From positions 1 through 64,000 of the forward strand of contig NZ_JASCTH010000009.1 of NCBI RefSeq assembly GCF_030009775.1: 64,000 bases of DNA. The letters are read 5' to 3'. The translations under genes were made by a program, and so were the position numbers. Shown in pieces: positions 13,402 to 50,662 of this stretch. Positions within the stretch are counted from its first letter, which is position 1, and each line of letters begins with the position of its first letter. A model generated the notes under the pieces. The model was given only the letters and a program-made list of their open reading frames with translations. It had not been told where the DNA came from and did not search any database. The stretch is from Actinoplanes sandaracinus. GTDB taxonomy: Bacteria; Actinomycetota; Actinomycetes; Mycobacteriales; Micromonosporaceae.

Positions 13402-14643
13402 GTGGACACGCTTAACGCCGGCCGCCGCTGGGCGGCCCTGCTCGCCCTCTCACTCGGCGGCTTCGGGCTGGGCCTGACCGAGTTCGTGGCCATGGGACTG
13501 CTCCCCGAGATCGCCCGGGACCTGGTCCCCGAGGCCCACGCGGCTTCCGTCCCCGACGCCCTCGCCAAGACCGGCTGGATGATCACGATCTACGCGCTGG
13601 GCGTGGTCACGGGCGCGCCCACCATCGCGGCGCTGACCGCCCGGACGCCGCGCCGCCGCCTGGTTCTCGGCCTGCTCACCGTCTTCGTGGTGGGCACCGC
13701 CGCCTCCGCGCTCGCGCCCACCTTCGAGCTGGTCCTGGCGGCCCGGTTCATCGCGGCGCTGGCACACGGCGCCTACTTCGGAGCGGCCGGCCAGCTCGCC
13801 GCGCACATCCTGGGCCCGGGCAACCAGGGCCGGGGCGTGTCGATCGTGATCGGCGGCCTGACCGCGGCGAACCTGCTCGGCGTTCCGCTGATCACGGTGC
13901 TCGGGCAGTCGCACGGCTGGCGGGCCGCTTACCTGGCCGTCGCCGCCGTCTTCGCGTTCAGCCTGTTGGCGGTGCTCACGACCGTACCCGAGATGTCGGC
14001 CGCGCCCGGCGGGTCACCGCGCGCCGAACTGCGGGCGTTCCGTTCGCCGCAGGTCTGGCTGGTCGCCCTCGCCGTCGGTGTCGGCACCAGCGGCTTCTTC
14101 GCCGTGAACAGCTATGTCGCGCCGATCACCACGCATGTGGCCGGCCTGTCCGAGAACACGGTCCCGTGGGTACTGGCCTCGATGGGCCTCGGCATGACCG
14201 GCGGCATCGCCCTGGGCGGCATCGCCGCGGACCGCGATCTGCGCCGCAGCGTGCTGTTCGGCTTCGCCGGGCTGATCACCACCGTGGCGTTCTTCGCGGT
14301 GGCGGCCGACGGGCCGGCGGGCCTCATCGTCGGCGCGTTCCTGGTCGGCGCGGCCAGTCTCTTCATCATTCCGGCCCTGCAGTCCCGCTTGATCGCGGTG
14401 GCTCCGGGCGCCCAGCTCATGGGGGCGGCGGTGAACCAGTCCTCCCTGAACGTCGCCAACAGCATCGGGGCCGCTCTCGGCGGCGCGGTCATCGCCGCGG
14501 GCTGGGGATACCTGGCCTCCGCGTGGCTCGGCGTGGCTCTCTCGATCGCCGGCCTGCTGCTGGCGTTGCTCAGTTTCCGCATCGACGCCCGCGCCGCGAC
14601 CCTGGTCGACGCTTCACGGTTCGAGGCGCCCGCACCCGCTTGA
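13402..14643 (+). CDS. MFS exporter, DHA1 type (paralogue 2)
   Basis: 413 aa, 12 predicted membrane helices, collinear and highly similar along its whole length with the preceding exporter, so the two arose by tandem duplication. Differences cluster in helix-lining positions and the C-terminus, leaving room for a changed substrate range. GTG at 13402 has only a poor, close GGAG; the operator ends 12 bp before it, so the leader must be very short. The stop codon lies inside the first unit of a 51-bp tandem repeat, so the last residues (FEAPAPA) are repeat-encoded. Confidence 0.92.
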   Translation: MDTLNAGRRWAALLALSLGGFGLGLTEFVAMGLLPEIARDLVPEAHAASVPDALAKTGWMITIYALGVVTGAPTIAALTARTPRRRLVLGLLTVFVVGTAASALAPTFELVLAARFIAALAHGAYFGAAGQLAAHILGPGNQGRGVSIVIGGLTAANLLGVPLITVLGQSHGWRAAYLAVAAVFAFSLLAVLTTVPEMSAAPGGSPRAELRAFRSPQVWLVALAVGVGTSGFFAVNSYVAPITTHVAGLSENTVPWVLASMGLGMTGGIALGGIAADRDLRRSVLFGFAGLITTVAFFAVAADGPAGLIVGAFLVGAASLFIIPALQSRLIAVAPGAQLMGAAVNQSSLNVANSIGAALGGAVIAAGWGYLASAWLGVALSIAGLLLALLSFRIDARAATLVDASRFEAPAPA

Positions 14644-14770
14644 ACCGGCTCACAAAACGACGTCCCGCGGTACGAGGCGCCCGCACCCGCCTCAACCGGC
14701 TCACAAAACGACGCCCCACGGCATGAGGTGGCCGCACCCGCTCAATCGGCTCGCAAGACGACGGCGTCGG
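14621..14770. repeat. Three 51-bp tandem repeats spanning the stop codon of MFS-2
   Basis: Units start near 14621, 14672 and 14723; GAGGCGCCCGCACCCGC and CACAAAACGACG blocks recur at exact 51-bp steps, the third copy being more diverged. The first unit carries the exporter stop TGA, which is TCA in the second. A multiple-of-three length keeps one frame open through units two and three. Confidence 0.85.
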
Positions 14771-16005: not shown

Positions 16006-16080
16006 CGTTCCTCCTCGAAGGCCGACGTGACGGGCCGGCACGAGGTTGTGCCGGCGCGAGGATCGACCTTACGGAGCCGC

Positions 16081-16215
16081 ACACCGCCGAGCCAAAAGAC
16101 GACGCCCGGCCGGTGGGCGAGCAGCACACCGCCGAACCAAACGGCGACGCCCGGCCGGTGGGCGAGCAGCACACCGCCCAGCCGAACGACGACGCCGGGC
16201 CGGTGGGTGAGCACC
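16081..16215. repeat. Three 45-bp tandem repeats between the HEAT-like and cutinase genes
   Basis: Units begin at 16081, 16126 and 16171, each containing ACACCGCC, a degenerate AAxGACGACGCC block and CGGCCGGTGGGCGAGCAG. The length keeps frames open on both strands, but no start or ribosome-binding site accompanies them. The AAAA-GACGACGCCC block resembles part of the 51-bp repeat on the other side of the HEAT-like gene. Confidence 0.85.
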
Positions 16216-42447: not shown

Positions 42448-43188
42448 TCAGCGGCCCAGTTCGCCGCGCAGGCCGGAACGGACCAGTGCGGCGTGCAACC
42501 GCTGCGAAAGCGCCTGCAGCTCACGCGCGGTCTCGACGGCACGGGCCCGCGCCGCCGGGTCGTGCTGCCGGGCCATCGGGGCCAGCAACTGTGTGAACAA
42601 GCCCACCTCACGATCCGCGGAGTTCTTGAAAGCCCGCAGGTGACGGGCCTCCAACCCGTAACGGGCAAGACCCACCACGGCCTCCACGATGATCACCTGG
42701 TCGGCGTCGTACCAGCCCGGCGGACGCGCGGTGACCAGACCGATCTGCTCCAGATCGGCCAGCACCGCCTCGTCCACCCCGGTCCGCTCCAGCAGGTCCG
42801 CTTTCGGAATGCGGGCGTCGGCCGGATCCTTGGCCTGAGAAGCGCCCACCGCCACCAGCGTGGGCCGCTGCGGGACCACCGGCTCCTTCTCCATCCGGTC
42901 CAGCTGCTCGCGGATCACCCGCAAGGGGAGGTACTGATCCCGCTGGGCGGTCAGCACGAACCGCAGCCGGGCCACGTCGTTCCACGAGTACTTGCGGTAC
43001 CCGGAGGCGGTGCGTTGCGGGTCGACCAGACCCTCCGCCTCCAGGAACCGCAATTTCGAGATCGTGGTGTCGGGGAACTCGGTGCGCAGATGGGCCAGCA
43101 CCTCCCCGATGCTCATCAGCGCACCCTCACGCCCGTCCTGGGGACGCGAAGCCCCCGGGTCACGCGCGGCCGCCCCCGGCGAAGTCAC
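42448..43188 (-). CDS. ftsR: MerR-family regulator, FtsR type
   Basis: 246 aa. N-terminal extension, then the HTH (MSIGEVLAHLRTEFPDTTISKLRFLEAEGLVDPQRTASGYRKYSWNDVARLRFVL), coiled-coil, and a C-terminal helical domain (YGLEARHLRAFKNSADREV). Closely resembles Rv1828/FtsR, a regulator linked to ftsZ expression in Corynebacterium. The GTG at 43188 overlaps the FHA gene stop by 4 nt, supporting translational coupling; the ATG of MSIG (24 codons on) is the alternative start. Confidence 0.93.
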   Translation of the reverse strand: MTSPGAAARDPGASRPQDGREGALMSIGEVLAHLRTEFPDTTISKLRFLEAEGLVDPQRTASGYRKYSWNDVARLRFVLTAQRDQYLPLRVIREQLDRMEKEPVVPQRPTLVAVGASQAKDPADARIPKADLLERTGVDEAVLADLEQIGLVTARPPGWYDADQVIIVEAVVGLARYGLEARHLRAFKNSADREVGLFTQLLAPMARQHDPAARARAVETARELQALSQRLHAALVRSGLRGELGR

Positions 43189-43634
43189 GCCCGGCCCTCG
43201 CCCTCCGGCCGCGGACCGGCGATGAACACCAGACGGAACTTGCCGATCTGGACCTCGTCGCCATTGCTGAGCGTCGCGGCTTCAACCCTTTCCCGGTTCA
43301 CGTACGTACCGTTGAGGGAGCCGACGTCGCGGACGGTGAAGACGCCACCGTCACGGTGGAACTCGGCGTGGCGGCGCGACACCGTCACGTCGTCGAGGAA
43401 GATGTCACTGTCCGGGTGCCGGCCGCTGGTCGTCACGTCGTGATCGAGGAGGAAGCGGGCGCCGGCGTTCGGGCCACGCCGGACCACCAGCAGAGCCATC
43501 CCCGGCGGGAGCGAACCGGCCATCCGGCTCGGAACCACGTCCGTCTCAGGTCCCTCCAGCACCTCGTCAAGGGCGCCAAGGTTCAGCGTGGACGTGACGT
43601 CGAGCGGGGGGAACTCGTCGTCTGGGCGCGTCAT
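43185..43634 (-). CDS. garA: FHA-domain protein, GarA/OdhI type
   Basis: 149 aa. FHA domain at about 55-135 with the phosphothreonine-binding residues in SGRHPDSDIFLDDVTVSRRHAEF and SLNGTYVN. The N-terminal segment (DVTSTLNLGALDE) corresponds to the region of GarA that carries the kinase-target threonines (ETTSVF). In mycobacteria and corynebacteria this protein inhibits 2-oxoglutarate-using enzymes when unphosphorylated. ATG at 43634 is preceded by a GAGGTGG site; a GTG 12 nt upstream is possible. Translationally coupled to the FtsR-type gene. Confidence 0.93.
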   Translation of the reverse strand: MTRPDDEFPPLDVTSTLNLGALDEVLEGPETDVVPSRMAGSLPPGMALLVVRRGPNAGARFLLDHDVTTSGRHPDSDIFLDDVTVSRRHAEFHRDGGVFTVRDVGSLNGTYVNRERVEAATLSNGDEVQIGKFRLVFIAGPRPEGEGRA

Positions 43635-43871: not shown

Positions 43872-44252
43872 TCAGCTCTCGGTCAGAGCCCTGTACGCCG
43901 CGGCGTCCAGCAGCGCGGAAACCGACGCCGGGTCGTCCGGCGCGATCTCGACCAGCCAGCCCGCCGCGTACGGCTCGCCGTTGATGATTTCCGGCTCGTC
44001 GGCCAGAGTGGCGTTCTTCGCCACGACCGTGCCGGAAATCGGGGCGTAGATCTCCGAGACGCTCTTGGTCGACTCGATCTCGCCGAGTGAGTCACCCGCC
44101 TGCACCACCGTGCCCTCCTCGGGCAACTGCACGTAGACGATGTCGCCCAGGGCGTCCTGTGCGAAATGGGTGATGCCCACCCGCACGGGCCCGCTGCCGT
44201 CACCGGCGATCCACTCGTGCTCCGCGGTGTACCGCAGATCCTCAGGAATCAA
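43872..44252 (-). CDS. gcvH: Glycine cleavage system H protein
   Basis: 126 aa lipoyl carrier. The lipoylation lysine is in the motif ESTKSVSEIYAP, with the family opening EHEWI and the C-terminal NGEPYAAGWLVEI. Shuttles the methylamine intermediate between P, T and L proteins; none of those genes is in the window. Start is TTG at 44252, after GGAGGAAGCG. The gene follows the second DUF881 gene by 15 nt in the same direction. Confidence 0.95.
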   Translation of the reverse strand: MIPEDLRYTAEHEWIAGDGSGPVRVGITHFAQDALGDIVYVQLPEEGTVVQAGDSLGEIESTKSVSEIYAPISGTVVAKNATLADEPEIINGEPYAAGWLVEIAPDDPASVSALLDAAAYRALTES

Positions 44253-44267: not shown

Positions 44268-45833
44268 TCACGAAACCGGACGTGCGTATCGCAAGGCTGC
44301 CGCCTTACGCACCGCGGTCACTTCGACCAGGGAACGCGAGTCCATGGTCACGCTACCGCCGGCGCTCTTCGCCTGCGCCACCACCCCGCCCGGGATCTGC
44401 AGCGCCGTGCTCATCGTGCCCGGCGGGCCGACCACCAGCAGATGGAACGGACCGGCGAGCTGCTCACCGTCGGCGATGATGCCACCACCCGCCGCGTCCA
44501 CGAAAAAGCTCGACGCGACCACCCGCACCGACACCCCGTTGGCACCGTTGAGCTGCATCACCTCACCGCCAGCACCGCGCAGCTCCTGCACCGAGTTCAG
44601 CACGTGAGAGGCGCCGACGTCGCGCAGCGTGATGTCCAGGCCCGGGCCACGGCCCGGCACCGTGCCCGCCAGCAGACCCAGCTCCTGACTGCGCCGCTCG
44701 GCCTCCTCACGGGCCGCCTCCTTACCGGCGACACCCGAGGTGAGCTGCTGCTTGCTCTGCTCCAGCCCCTGGATCTCGGCGAGCAGGCGACTGTCCTGCG
44801 CCTCTAGATCGCTCAGGATCCGGACCAGGTCCTCCTGTCGCGCGCCCGCCAGACCGTCGTCGGAGTCGTTGCTGCGCAACTGCACCACCAGCGTGAACCC
44901 GAGCAGCGCCAGCAACACCCAGATCAGCGTGCCGGCCGGCGCGGGCCGCCGCAGCCGAGGGCCCTGGCCCTGGCCTTGGTCCACGCTTGCGGTCGTGCTC
45001 GTGCTCCCGGTCGGGCTCGGGCTCGGGCGATCAAGATCACTTTCTCGGGCGGGCGTTCCGGAAATCGACGGATCGGGTGACGTGGCGGACGTCTCCCCCG
45101 CAGCGGGGGCCCCCTCACCCGTCCGGGGAGCCGCGACGCCGGCGGTGGTCCCAGTCTCCCCCGCGGCCTCCGATCCGTGCCGCCGGCGATCAAGATCACG
45201 ATCATGCGGTACGGCCTGAGCACCGTCCCGTCCAGCGCCTCCCACGGGGGCGTCCTCCACCGCGGGTGACCCGGCGGCCGGCGGCCTGAGGTCGAGGTTC
45301 CGCCCCGCCAGAGACACCGTCGGCTCCTCGTCCTCCTGCCTCGCGACGGAGTCCTGCCACGCGGGGCCTTCCCGGCCCGCGGCGGAGTCCGGCACGAGGT
45401 CAGTGCCACTTCCGAAGAACGCCGCCGTCGGCTCATCTCGCGCCGTCTGCGGCACGGGGTCAGTGCCACCTCCGAAGAACGCCGCCGTCGGCTCATCTCG
45501 CGCCGTCTGCGGCACGGGGTCAGCGCCACCTCCGAAGAACGCCGCCGTCGGCTCGCCTTCCGGGAGCGGCGCGGCGTGGGAGGCGGGCCTTCCGAAGAAC
45601 GCGCTCGTCGGCTCCTCCTCGGTGGGCTGCCGCGCGGAGGGCGCCTTCTCCCTGAAGAACGCGGTCGTCGGCTCCTCTTCCGTGTCGGCCGGGGCGCCGG
45701 AAGGCGAACCCCCGGAAGTCGGTCCGCTCGTGGGCGACGGAGGCGTCTCGGCCGGTCTGCGGCCGGCCATGGGCAGGCCCGGACCGGGCACCGCCTCGTT
45801 CGCGGGCCGGACGGAGTCGTCAGGATCGGTCAT
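44268..45833 (-). CDS. DUF881 membrane protein with five EPTxAFF repeats
   Basis: 521 aa. Residues 1-300 are disordered and cytoplasmic: five exact 20-residue periods with core EEPTTAFF, EEPTSAFF, GEPTAAFF, DEPTAAFF, DEPTAAFF at 53, 73, 93, 113 and 133, and a sixth diverged copy (EEPTVSL) at 169. One membrane helix at 302-318, then a coiled coil (LVRILSDLEAQDSRLLAEIQGLEQSKQQL) and the extracytoplasmic DUF881 domain. Equivalent to Rv1825 by order. ATG at 45833. Function of DUF881 is unknown; the repeats are discussed as a possible kinase target. Confidence 0.9.
   Translation of the reverse strand: MTDPDDSVRPANEAVPGPGLPMAGRRPAETPPSPTSGPTSGGSPSGAPADTEEEPTTAFFREKAPSARQPTEEEPTSAFFGRPASHAAPLPEGEPTAAFFGGGADPVPQTARDEPTAAFFGGGTDPVPQTARDEPTAAFFGSGTDLVPDSAAGREGPAWQDSVARQEDEEPTVSLAGRNLDLRPPAAGSPAVEDAPVGGAGRDGAQAVPHDRDLDRRRHGSEAAGETGTTAGVAAPRTGEGAPAAGETSATSPDPSISGTPARESDLDRPSPSPTGSTSTTASVDQGQGQGPRLRRPAPAGTLIWVLLALLGFTLVVQLRSNDSDDGLAGARQEDLVRILSDLEAQDSRLLAEIQGLEQSKQQLTSGVAGKEAAREEAERRSQELGLLAGTVPGRGPGLDITLRDVGASHVLNSVQELRGAGGEVMQLNGANGVSVRVVASSFFVDAAGGGIIADGEQLAGPFHLLVVGPPGTMSTALQIPGGVVAQAKSAGGSVTMDSRSLVEVTAVRKAAALRYARPVS
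45421..45540 (-). repeat. 60-bp tandem repeat within the DUF881 gene
   Basis: Two copies, 45421-45480 and 45481-45540, differ at one base; neighbouring units are diverged but keep the 60-bp register. They encode the 20-residue EPTxAFF periods, so they are recently expanded coding repeats. Confidence 0.9.
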
Positions 45834-45840
45834 CGGATTC

Positions 45841-46173
45841 CTATGCCCTGAACAGGTGCCGTCGGATTGCCGCGACATTACCGAAGATCCGGACGCCGAG
45901 CACGACCACGACACCCGTCGACAACTGGCCGCCGACGCCGAGTTGGTCGCCCACATAGACGATCAGCGCCGACACCAGCACGTTCGAGATGAACGACACG
46001 ACGAACTGCTTGTCGTCGAAGATGCCGTCCAGCTTGGCGCGCACCCCGCCGAACACCGCGTCCAACGCCGCCACCACCGCGATCGGCAGGTACGGCACCA
46101 GTTCCGGAGGCACCGACGGTTCGAACAGAATGCCCAGCAGGACACCGGCCAACAGGGCGAGTACGGCGATCAT
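45841..46173 (-). CDS. Small basic protein family membrane protein (DUF1290)
   Basis: 110 aa, three to four membrane helices (MIAVLALLAGVLLGILF, YLPIAVVAALDAVFGGVRA, ISNVLVSALIVYVGDQLG, STGVVVVLGVRIFGNV). Typical Sbp/DUF1290, a family found with DUF881 genes across actinobacteria and in division clusters of Firmicutes. ATG overlaps the stop of the preceding DUF881 gene by 4 nt. Corresponds to Rv1824. Confidence 0.93.
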   Translation of the reverse strand: MIAVLALLAGVLLGILFEPSVPPELVPYLPIAVVAALDAVFGGVRAKLDGIFDDKQFVVSFISNVLVSALIVYVGDQLGVGGQLSTGVVVVLGVRIFGNVAAIRRHLFRA

Positions 46174-47453
46174 CGGCCGCCTTCCGTCACTGACGAATCG
46201 GGGGCGGGCGACCCCGCACCCGACGACACTTTCGACGAGCCGGAGGGTGAGGGCGCGACGCTGGGCTCAGCCGACCGCAGCTTGAAGTCGGCCGCCGCCT
46301 CCAAGGTCACGTCCTCGGCCTCGGCGGTCTCGAAGGAGATACCGAACCGGTCCGACAACGTCTCGAAGAACTCGCCGGCATAGCCGTCACGGAAGTCGTC
46401 GGCCAGATCGTCGGGCCCGATCGCCACGACCTCGTAGGGCGACCCGACCGGTCGGATGTCCACCAGGATCGCCTCGCCGGCCTGCCGGATCCGGGATGTC
46501 GCGGTCAGCCGCTGCCCATTGATCATGATGGCCTCGGCGCCGGCCTCCCACAGCGCGTTCGCCGCAAGCTGCAGATCGGTGTCCTTCACCTGCGCCTCGG
46601 TCCGCCGCTCACCGGTCACCGCGTTCACCGAGGTCGGCCCGTCCACCAGGGTGATCCGGGCGCCGGAGCCCCGCACCTTCGCCACACCGGTGACCGCCTC
46701 CAGGTCGCGCAGCCGGGCCACCGCCGCGCCGCCCAACTCGTTGTCACGCAGCGTCGCGACCTCATCGGCGAGCCTGTCCGCCTGCTGCCGCAACCTCTCG
46801 GTCCCGTCCCGCCGCGTCTGCACCTGGGCGATCAGCGCGTCCCGTGCCTGCGTGCGGGCCGGCTCCTCGTCCACCGTCTGCCGGTAGGCGAACACCAGCA
46901 AAAACCCGATCACCACCAGGGTGAGCGCCGCCGAACCGGTCGCCAGGCCCCGCCTCGCCCCGGTCCGCGGTCCCTCCTTCGCACGCCGGGCCGCGGCGTC
47001 CGCGTAACCCGGGTCGAGGGGATTCTGGAACAACTCCGTCAGGAAGTCGGGCGCGTAGGTCCGCTTGCCCGCCGCACCGCCGTCCGGATCCGGTGGCTTG
47101 ACCACACCGTCCCCGTCATCGGCGGTCCCACTGGCCGCCGGCCGGATCACCGCCGGGCTTGCACCGCCCTCGGCACTCGCACCATGCGCCGGGCTTCTAC
47201 TGCCCTCGGGGCCTGCACCATCCGCCGGGCTTGCACCGCCCGCCGGGCTCTCAGCCTGTCCGGAACTGGGCCGGCCGGCCGCATGCTGCCCGACGCCCTC
47301 CGTGTCAGCGCCTACCGGGGCAGGGGTCGCCGGGTCGACCGCGTCGTTCGCGGCCGGGTCGGCCGCATCATCGTTCGTTGCCGGGTCAACCGCGTCGTTT
47401 CTGGCCGGCGTGACGGGAGTGTCGTCGGGCCGACCGGACGGCGGCTGATTCAC
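46170..47453 (-). CDS. DUF881 membrane protein (first copy)
   Basis: 427 aa. The first 130 residues are disordered, with a short DPATNDA-type repeat near 20-45; the segment around 130-156 (YAPDFLTELFQNPLDPGYADAAARR) is conserved in Rv1823-type proteins; TM at about 172-190; then a coiled coil and the DUF881 domain (ARITLVDGPTSVNAVTGER...). GTG at 47453 overlaps the phosphatidyltransferase stop (GTGA), which is better than the longer upstream reading. Followed by small basic protein with 4-nt overlap. Confidence 0.92.
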   Translation of the reverse strand: MNQPPSGRPDDTPVTPARNDAVDPATNDDAADPAANDAVDPATPAPVGADTEGVGQHAAGRPSSGQAESPAGGASPADGAGPEGSRSPAHGASAEGGASPAVIRPAASGTADDGDGVVKPPDPDGGAAGKRTYAPDFLTELFQNPLDPGYADAAARRAKEGPRTGARRGLATGSAALTLVVIGFLLVFAYRQTVDEEPARTQARDALIAQVQTRRDGTERLRQQADRLADEVATLRDNELGGAAVARLRDLEAVTGVAKVRGSGARITLVDGPTSVNAVTGERRTEAQVKDTDLQLAANALWEAGAEAIMINGQRLTATSRIRQAGEAILVDIRPVGSPYEVVAIGPDDLADDFRDGYAGEFFETLSDRFGISFETAEAEDVTLEAAADFKLRSAEPSVAPSPSGSSKVSSGAGSPAPDSSVTEGGR

Positions 47454-48052
47454 GAGGACTCCTCGCGGTCGGCGCGCAACAGCCGCACCGCCTGGACCAG
47501 GTAGAGCACCGCCGCACACCAGTACAGACCCAGCGCCCACCAGGCCAGACCCCAGCCCACCGGGCCCGCCCACCAGTCGACCGACGGCACCGCCTCGGCG
47601 AGCAGGATGATCGGGAACGAGCCGAGCAGCAGGAACGTCCCCGTCTTGCCGACGTAATGAACGGGCGGAGGACCGTAACCGTGGCGGCGCAGGATGATCA
47701 GCGCCACCCCGAGCACCGCTTCACGCAGCAACAACGCGCACGTGAACCACAGCGGTAGCACCTCACGGATGGTGAACCCGACCAGCGTCGCCACGATGTA
47801 GAGCCGGTCCGCGAACGGATCCAGCAACTCCCCGAGGCGGCTCACCGAGTTCATCCGGCGGGCGACATAGCCGTCGACCCAGTCGGTGGACCCGCCCACC
47901 GCCAGCACGATCACCGCGGCGATGTCGTTCTCCACCCCGAGCAGCAGGTAGAGGAAGAGCGGCACCCCGAGCAGCCGCACGAAACTGATGACGTTAGGCA
48001 GGGTCCAGATCCGGTTGGAGGACTCGATGGACGGCGCAGGCTGCTGCGACAT
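47450..48052 (-). CDS. CDP-alcohol phosphatidyltransferase (PgsA/PgsA2-like)
   Basis: 200 aa, about five membrane helices. The catalytic motif is DWVDGYVARRMNSVSRLGELLDPFADR, fitting D-x2-DG-x2-AR-x8-G-x3-D-x3-D. Transfers a phosphoalcohol to CDP-diacylglycerol; the acceptor (glycerol-3-phosphate, inositol phosphate or another) cannot be read. Position matches Rv1822 at the head of this locus. ATG at 48052 follows AGAGGAAG. Likely the first gene of a translationally coupled group running through DUF881 and small basic protein. Confidence 0.92.
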   Translation of the reverse strand: MSQQPAPSIESSNRIWTLPNVISFVRLLGVPLFLYLLLGVENDIAAVIVLAVGGSTDWVDGYVARRMNSVSRLGELLDPFADRLYIVATLVGFTIREVLPLWFTCALLLREAVLGVALIILRRHGYGPPPVHYVGKTGTFLLLGSFPIILLAEAVPSVDWWAGPVGWGLAWWALGLYWCAAVLYLVQAVRLLRADREESS

Positions 48053-50471: not shown

Positions 50472-50662
50472 CGGGCGGCCCCAGCGTCCGAAAGCAGAAC
50501 CGGCGGAGGCAGAGCCGACGGAAGCAGAACCGACGGAAGCGGGGCCGACGGAAGCGGAGCCGACGGAAGCGGAGCCGACGGAAGCGGAGCCGGCGCAACC
50601 CGAGCCGATGCGACCAGAACCGGCGGAAGCGGGCCCGGCGGGCGGGCCGAGAGGTCAGTCAT
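50468..50662 (-). CDS. Small Pro-rich repeat ORF coupled between moxR and VWA genes
   Basis: 64 aa. ATG at 50662, 5 nt after the ATPase stop, has GGGAG about nine bases upstream; its TGA overlaps the VWA GTG as GTGA. Residues 24-53 are pentapeptide repeats (APLPS four times, then VLLPS and ALPPP). The whole repeat region is made of ten 15-bp DNA units, so in-frame expansion would not break the gene. No known family; could be a coupling linker or a short extracytoplasmic/disordered peptide. Expression is inferred only from start/stop architecture. Confidence 0.5.
   Translation of the reverse strand: MTDLSARPPGPLPPVLVASARVAPAPLPSAPLPSAPLPSAPLPSVLLPSALPPPVLLSDAGAAR
50491..50640 (-). repeat. Ten 15-bp tandem repeats inside the small ORF
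   Basis: Units every 15 bp from 50491 to 50640, core GAAGC(A/G)GAGCC(G)ACG on the plus strand, the central five nearly identical. Length is a multiple of three, keeping the minus-strand frame that encodes APLPS. Confidence 0.85.

Follow-up and report, generated by a model that had tools for sequence, protein, structure and literature searches.

A tandem array of candidate threonine kinase sites in the tail of a DUF881 membrane protein of Actinoplanes sandaracinus

Introduction

What does it mean that a seven-residue sequence centered on threonine occurs five times, at a spacing of exactly 20 residues, in the tail of a bacterial membrane protein? The question is raised by a gene of Actinoplanes sandaracinus that lies in the window analyzed here, the 64,000 nucleotides at positions 1 to 64,000 of contig NZ_JASCTH010000009.1. 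FHA domains need phosphothreonine and often favor a given residue three positions after it. A preliminary description of the locus, made from the sequence alone, had proposed that the tail is a multi-site kinase target that could recruit the GarA-type FHA protein encoded nearby. The gene belongs to the DUF881 family, whose members adjoin sbp in all family, order and class loci that we examined, yet almost no functional literature on DUF881 was found, and the papers that name the domain are, by their titles, not about function. We therefore followed the array through the relatives of this species, its neighboring genes and the remainder of its genome.

Sequences and site definition

The family search returned 130 genomes with a match, 15 of them from Actinoplanes, and a full search of that genus then matched all 67 of its genomes. 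The orthologous tails used are those of the 66 other Actinoplanes genomes and of one genome from each of 34 other genera, sampled from the 39 with a match (five were left out). One locus, L099, was kept despite a doubtful tail start (9 aa, with a 384-base gap). A site was defined as a Thr with Asp or Glu at -2 or -3 and Leu, Ile or Phe at +3. We settled on this motif once the first loci had been viewed, and the test set includes those loci; the sets for the order, the class and the second protein were assembled afterward. Expected counts are from shuffles that keep composition and ignore ancestry, so species counts should not be read as independent.

Beyond the family, the order-level sample comprised 40 of 181 matching genomes, from 11 other families, and the class-level sample 20 of 82, from 11 families outside the order.

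Insights from the genome sequences

The array carrier is a membrane protein of 521 residues, homologous to Rv1825, encoded at 44268..45833; all genes and protein features of the locus given here with coordinates lie on the reverse strand. Its DUF881 domain (residues 383-518; 44280..44687) matches PF05949 at an E-value of 1e-22 and 81 bits, against a gathering score of 25, and the protein matches the solved structure of Rv1825, PDB 3gmg, at 3.5e-21. DUF881 was the sole Pfam match, with no match to FHA, and named Actinoplanes relatives are 79-90% identical to the carrier in this domain. With a profile score above the gathering threshold, one preceding membrane helix and an adjoining sbp gene, the carrier has the features of an Rv1825-type DUF881 protein. 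The membrane helix, at residues 300-321 (44871..44936), appears in the AlphaFold model and is supported by hydropathy and the positive-inside rule across 101 orthologues; two further modeled helices, 326-365 and 369-388 (44670..44858), read as coiled-coil-like.

Ahead of the membrane helix the tail is predicted to be disordered, as the preliminary description had held. In the AlphaFold model residues 1-296 have a pLDDT under 50 nearly throughout and no secondary structure; the model of the whole carrier, built on nine sequences, has a mean pLDDT of 51 and low confidence except in the helices and the domain, so its support for a disordered tail is weak. Lys and Arg are in excess on the N-terminal side of the helix in 82 of 101 orthologues and in deficit in one, which fits the positive-inside rule and suggests that the tail is cytoplasmic. 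The disordered cytoplasmic tail and single helix of the preliminary description thus agree with the model and with the charge pattern, and stand as a prediction. Between array and helix, at about residues 246-269, lies the sequence ETSxTSPDPSIS followed by ESDLDRP, which is present in most of nine aligned relatives.

The array itself consists of five units of 60 bp or 20 residues, r1 to r5, at residues 52-151 (45381..45680, from the unit listing). Pattern matching places the cores at 45654..45674 (r1, EPTTAFF, Thr56), 45594..45614 (r2, EPTSAFF, Thr76), 45534..45554 (r3, EPTAAFF, Thr96), 45474..45494 (r4, EPTAAFF, Thr116) and 45414..45434 (r5, EPTAAFF, Thr136). The translation bears out the five strictly spaced EPTxAFF sequences first reported, as well as a separate EEPTVSL (Thr172; 45309..45329), a form also present in relatives such as those at L062 and L065. 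Tandem Repeats Finder reports a 60-bp array at 45390-45554 with 2.8 copies, 97% matches and a score of 309, values which argue that the repeat is not due to chance. Other tandem repeats in the window lie at 14607-14763, 16074-16213 and 50492-50641 (51, 45 and 15/30/45 bp).

The repeats had been called exact, and this is true of the seven-residue cores and their period of 20 residues; the linkers have diverged in units 1 and 2, and the core is all that the five units have in common. Between units, the cores are identical at 86-100% of bases. For the linkers the figure is 69-87% within units 3-5, 41-51% between units 1-2 and units 3-5 (codon-shuffled 28-35%) and 51% between unit 1 and unit 2 (shuffled 37%), so that instead of the two nearly identical periods noted before there are three close copies, units 3-5. 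Core codons are the same in all units except at position x, although in a genome sample ACG makes up only 27% of Thr codons and GCG 38% of Ala codons, so that the cores within this gene are explained by common descent and not by convergence. The five units seem to have decayed from a single ancestral unit of 60 bp.

The literal EPTxAFF is found in this protein in none of the other 66 of the 67 Actinoplanes genomes. Over all 67 it occurs five times here and once in another genome, on a contig differing from that of its DUF881 gene. The preliminary description had named confinement to one strain as counting against its proposal, and the literal sequence is so confined (one of 67 species); the wider Thr grammar is not. 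In the 66 other Actinoplanes species we counted 119 Thr +3 sites against 15.1 +/- 3.9 expected (the maximum of 300 shuffles was 27), and 43 species have a site against 12.9 expected. The 34 other genera gave 27 sites against 2.3, in 13 genera against 2.2. Ser at the same place shows no excess, either in the genus (14 vs 13.1) or in the other genera (1 vs 2.3).

Scanning the offset of the hydrophobic residue in the genus tails gave a peak at +3 for Thr, with +1, +4 and +5 at expectation and +2 also raised (37 vs 15.0). Around Thr in these tails, that of A. sandaracinus included, Asp is enriched 2.1-fold at -3, Glu 2.0-fold at -2, Val 2.0-fold at +1, Leu 3.5-fold at +3 and Lys 2.3-fold at +4, and around Ser there is no hydrophobic excess at +3. 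Among the 133 different 11-residue sites of the other species, 114 have Leu at +3 and 63 have Pro at -1. Sites with two or more acidic residues at -2 to -4, this species again included, number 79 for Thr and 4 for Ser, among 1141 Thr and 1077 Ser residues in all. A site is present in 57 of the 101 tails and three or more in 25; the 44 tails without one have a median length of 87.5 residues, compared with 165 for site-bearing tails.

Both the words and the periods of the arrays vary between relatives, from DDEPTTSLTAP at 16 residues (L121), DPGEATQLLSS at 17-19 (L114) and LDGPTRPLDR at 16-17 (L097) to the GDEPTTALTA type (L067) and the EPTxAFF at 20 of this species. Copy number differs even between near neighbors on a FastTree tree of the domain: L067 has 8 sites and L065, at a distance of 0.027, has 1; L114 has 8 and L107 and L108 have 3; L121 has 7 and L119 has 2. 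A. sandaracinus itself has 7, a count that includes the overlapping Thr57, and its tree neighbor L059 has 1. The copy-number comparison suggested in the preliminary description thus finds the acidic, Thr, +3 hydrophobic pattern recurring at 0 to 8 sites. In one Actinoplanes clade only 3 of 11 members have sites, and this, together with the 44 site-free tails, implies that the array is dispensable. The tail of L059 is built of TGEHRVVP repeats, which fall outside the acidic-Thr-x-x-Leu grammar.

Beyond the family the pattern thins out. The order-level loci hold 15 sites against 2.3 expected, all of them in 6 loci of two families, and Thr +5 is equally raised there (15 vs 2.2, in 10 loci), in part because words such as TERIDL and TEAITL have Leu at that position. 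The 20 loci outside the order show no excess (3 vs 1.4 expected); two of the three sites, EDET[LI]LI, are in two loci of one family, and the third, AGTTVL, is in another. The array is thus a difference from the DUF881 cluster elsewhere, with tails free of sites in 9 of the 11 families sampled from the order and in 9 of 11 outside it.

Directly upstream of the carrier is sbp (DUF1290; 45841..46173; PF06947 and synteny), which has the same upstream position and orientation in all 101 family loci, at most 50 bases away in 100 of them, in all 40 order-level loci and in all 20 outside the order. A paralogous DUF881 protein without an array follows as an open frame at 46170..47573 (start codon uncertain; PF05949, 6.7e-34). 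On the other side, gcvH (43872..44252; PF01597, 5.6e-43) stands between the carrier and a gene for a GarA/OdhI FHA protein (43185..43634; PF00498, NF041660 and PDB GarA chains). Other neighbors are two MerR genes, a bifunctional nuclease and a CDP-alcohol phosphatidyltransferase. The domain and the gene order are those of Rv1825 and of the actinobacterial cluster pgsA2-DUF881-sbp-DUF881-gcvH-garA, which we take to be the form found in M. tuberculosis as well.

NF041660 identifies the neighboring FHA protein as the GarA/OdhI equivalog, with 206.7 bits where the cut-off is 200. The switch site of this protein is DVTSTLNL and differs from the ETTSVF that the preliminary description gave for GarA; all 100 loci with a garA match have DVTST[LM]. 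Adjacency had made GarA the proposed reader of the array, and we set this aside, since garA is matched in the fetched locus regardless of the motif (57 of 57 loci with it, 43 of 44 without) and its FHA core and switch site are nearly invariant across loci.

The paralogue is not a general array carrier. Its tail has a site in 88 of 101 loci, in windows of the 150 residues before the helix, which for short tails may run into translation from outside the gene, and this is one fixed PDFLTELF-like element with no array; beyond it only L120 and L147 showed sites. The juxtamembrane element, PDFLTELFxNPLDPGYADAA, includes a motif-like Thr. At L120 (genome G188) the paralogue tail holds three PTVDLRSYRE repeats (DETPTVDLRS); the tail of the orthologue is short there and has no sites, which in this one case looks as though the array had moved between the DUF881 paralogues.

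Within the genome of A. sandaracinus, disordered segments in a 464-kb sample without the carrier have 48 Thr +3 sites against 35.6 +/- 6.8, together with 51 Thr +2 against 36.8 and 18 Ser +3 against 27.5, at most a weak general tilt toward Thr +3. A scan of 864 kb, with Val added to the +3 set and the non-randomly chosen window included in the sample, found disordered segments of 60 or more residues in 415 of 578 predicted proteins. Three of the 415 have three or more Thr sites at a z above 3, and none has Ser sites at that level: a protein at L270 (11 vs 1.1 expected), the array carrier (7 vs 0.8) and a protein at L273 (5 vs 1.0). Two literal patterns were also tried genome-wide as array finders and rejected, as many words matched by the DEPT pattern look like ABC-transporter Walker B segments and those matched by the second look like WD40 repeats.

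The L270 protein (L270:17048-18346; C35:37048-38346 of the same genome) pairs a hydrophobic membrane region with a long tail at the C-terminus that carries a Thr-site array, has no DUF881 domain and matched nothing in Pfam or NCBIfam at 0.001. With its first 134 residues as query, a match was found in 28 of 30 genus genomes, its own included, and in one species the open frame extends to 1716 codons. The family was picked from this genome, and the other 27 species played no part in the choice. Sites occur in 28 of 28 tails, 10 of which are incomplete at the end of the fetched stretch; with Leu, Ile, Val and Phe as the hydrophobic set, Thr +3 sites number 337 against 53.8 +/- 6.5 and Ser sites 10 against 28.8. 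Other offsets are raised as well (+1, 181 vs 53.5; +2, 280 vs 53.1; +4, 99 vs 51.9; +5, 120 vs 51.7), partly because units such as DEPTTVL hold several hydrophobic residues, and +3 is the highest.

Kinases, a phosphatase and FHA proteins are all encoded in this genome. At L279 two kinases, one of them a PASTA kinase, are clustered with a PP2C phosphatase and an FhaA-type FHA protein; from the usual gene order we take the genes of this cluster to be PknB, PknA, PstP and FhaB. FHA matches number eight genome-wide, and since two pairs have identical scores on two contigs there are about six FHA loci. Near the kinase cluster, at L279:5268-7073, is a sortase-domain protein with a long disordered N-terminal tail and a few similar Thr sites.

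Discussion

The tail of the DUF881 protein has an upstream acidic residue, Thr and a hydrophobic residue at +3, as in a PknA-type Ser/Thr kinase site. In M. tuberculosis, Thr sites lost on pknA depletion have acidic residues at -1 and from -6 to -3, Pro at -1 and +2, Leu or Val at +3 and Lys or Arg at +4, with -2 not listed and the pknB set not significant in the available text of that study (PMC7164672). The array grammar is like this motif, though not at every position; Glu, which these tails favor at -2, is an addition to the reported motif.

Our preferred reading, which we hold to be about evenly balanced, is that the tail is a multi-site Ser/Thr-kinase target read by FHA domains, and that it forms a tunable multivalent scaffold at the membrane. 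A flexible cytoplasmic arm would present six similar sites, five in tandem and one apart; PknA/PknB-type kinases would phosphorylate their threonines, and FHA-domain proteins would bind the resulting phosphothreonines. As the sites are many and alike, we propose that the number phosphorylated would set the degree to which FHA proteins accumulate at the DUF881 protein and at Sbp, its likely partner, with which it probably forms a complex, and that kinase and phosphatase together would tune the scaffold. Of the original proposal, a multi-site kinase target with FHA recruitment, the kinase-site grammar is strengthened by its recurrence in orthologues; the naming of GarA as the recruited protein is not. 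An array family on another contig of the same genome likewise counts against the GarA of this locus as the reader. On present sequence evidence GarA is one candidate reader among several, and FhaA or FhaB seems at least as likely.

Several known systems share parts of this design. The GarA/OdhI switch also joins an acidic-Thr-x-x-hydrophobic site to an FHA domain, and garA is present here. Its one or two phosphosites are on the FHA protein itself, whereas the many sites described here are on a membrane protein with no FHA match. The transporter Rv1747 presumably holds FHA domains in the very protein that clusters, unlike the array carrier; by analogy, the carrier may still act in an Rv1747-like manner with FHA partners in trans. 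The clustering of Rv1747 is driven by Ser/Thr kinases, and its condensates, as described in the available text (PMC8573418), share the kinase-set multivalency at a membrane protein that is proposed here. A precedent for an FHA reader is the binding of FhaA to phosphorylated MviN and CwlM, where an FHA protein encoded in the pknA/pknB cluster binds phosphorylated envelope proteins; unlike here, a tandem array is not mentioned in the available text (PMC11898655).

Phosphorylation could also suffice without any FHA reader, the phosphates altering charge or the contact of the tail with the membrane, Sbp or DUF881, or the tail acting as a sink for kinase and phosphatase. Mycobacterial kinase sites alone yield the acidic, Thr, +3 hydrophobic pattern, at least in the available text (PMC7164672), so an FHA reader is not needed for the grammar, and the adjacency of garA is independent of the array. 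We nevertheless consider this fairly unlikely, in that many similar sites clustered in two membrane proteins would fit a multivalent reader better than bulk charge. The restriction to Thr does not discriminate here, as it suits a Thr-preferring kinase and an FHA reader alike.

That restriction does bear on the idea that the repeat acts as a short linear motif (acid-P-T-V-x-L) without being phosphorylated and is recognized by a different folded domain. The EPTxAFF and EPTVxL cores are compact and repeated, and similar strings occur in apparent ABC Walker B and WD40 segments, that is, in non-phospho settings; yet the near exclusion of Ser (79 to 4 in the DUF881 tails, 337 to 10 in the L270 family) would be hard to explain with a generic groove, and we regard the idea as improbable. 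Neutral slippage in a low-complexity, GC-rich tail, which would make the repeats functionless, seems to us very improbable. It agrees with a 60-bp tandem repeat that has recent copies, with the highly variable tail length and with the 44 of 101 tails lacking sites, but differing words and periods share one Thr, acidic and +3 grammar, a convergence that slippage alone does not predict.

Conclusions

Kinase/FHA signaling is itself known; what appears to be new is a repeated and rebuilt Thr-site array on the tail of a DUF881 membrane protein. A broader possibility, which we advance tentatively and think doubtful, is that homotypic phosphothreonine arrays form a general system in Micromonosporaceae, in which copy number would set FHA clustering and valence would be an evolving trait; DUF881 proteins, L270-type proteins and perhaps other envelope proteins would then gain and shed kinase-site arms independently. 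With orthologues that range from 0 to 8 sites, some of them near-sisters, the link between kinase, FHA protein and envelope protein can be tested directly. That a second protein family has multi-site Thr arrays suggests that bacteria make wider use of them, in a manner comparable to the multisite phosphorylation of eukaryotes, and the rebuilding of arrays in new forms by relatives suggests that the tail may be a tunable, many-handed docking platform.
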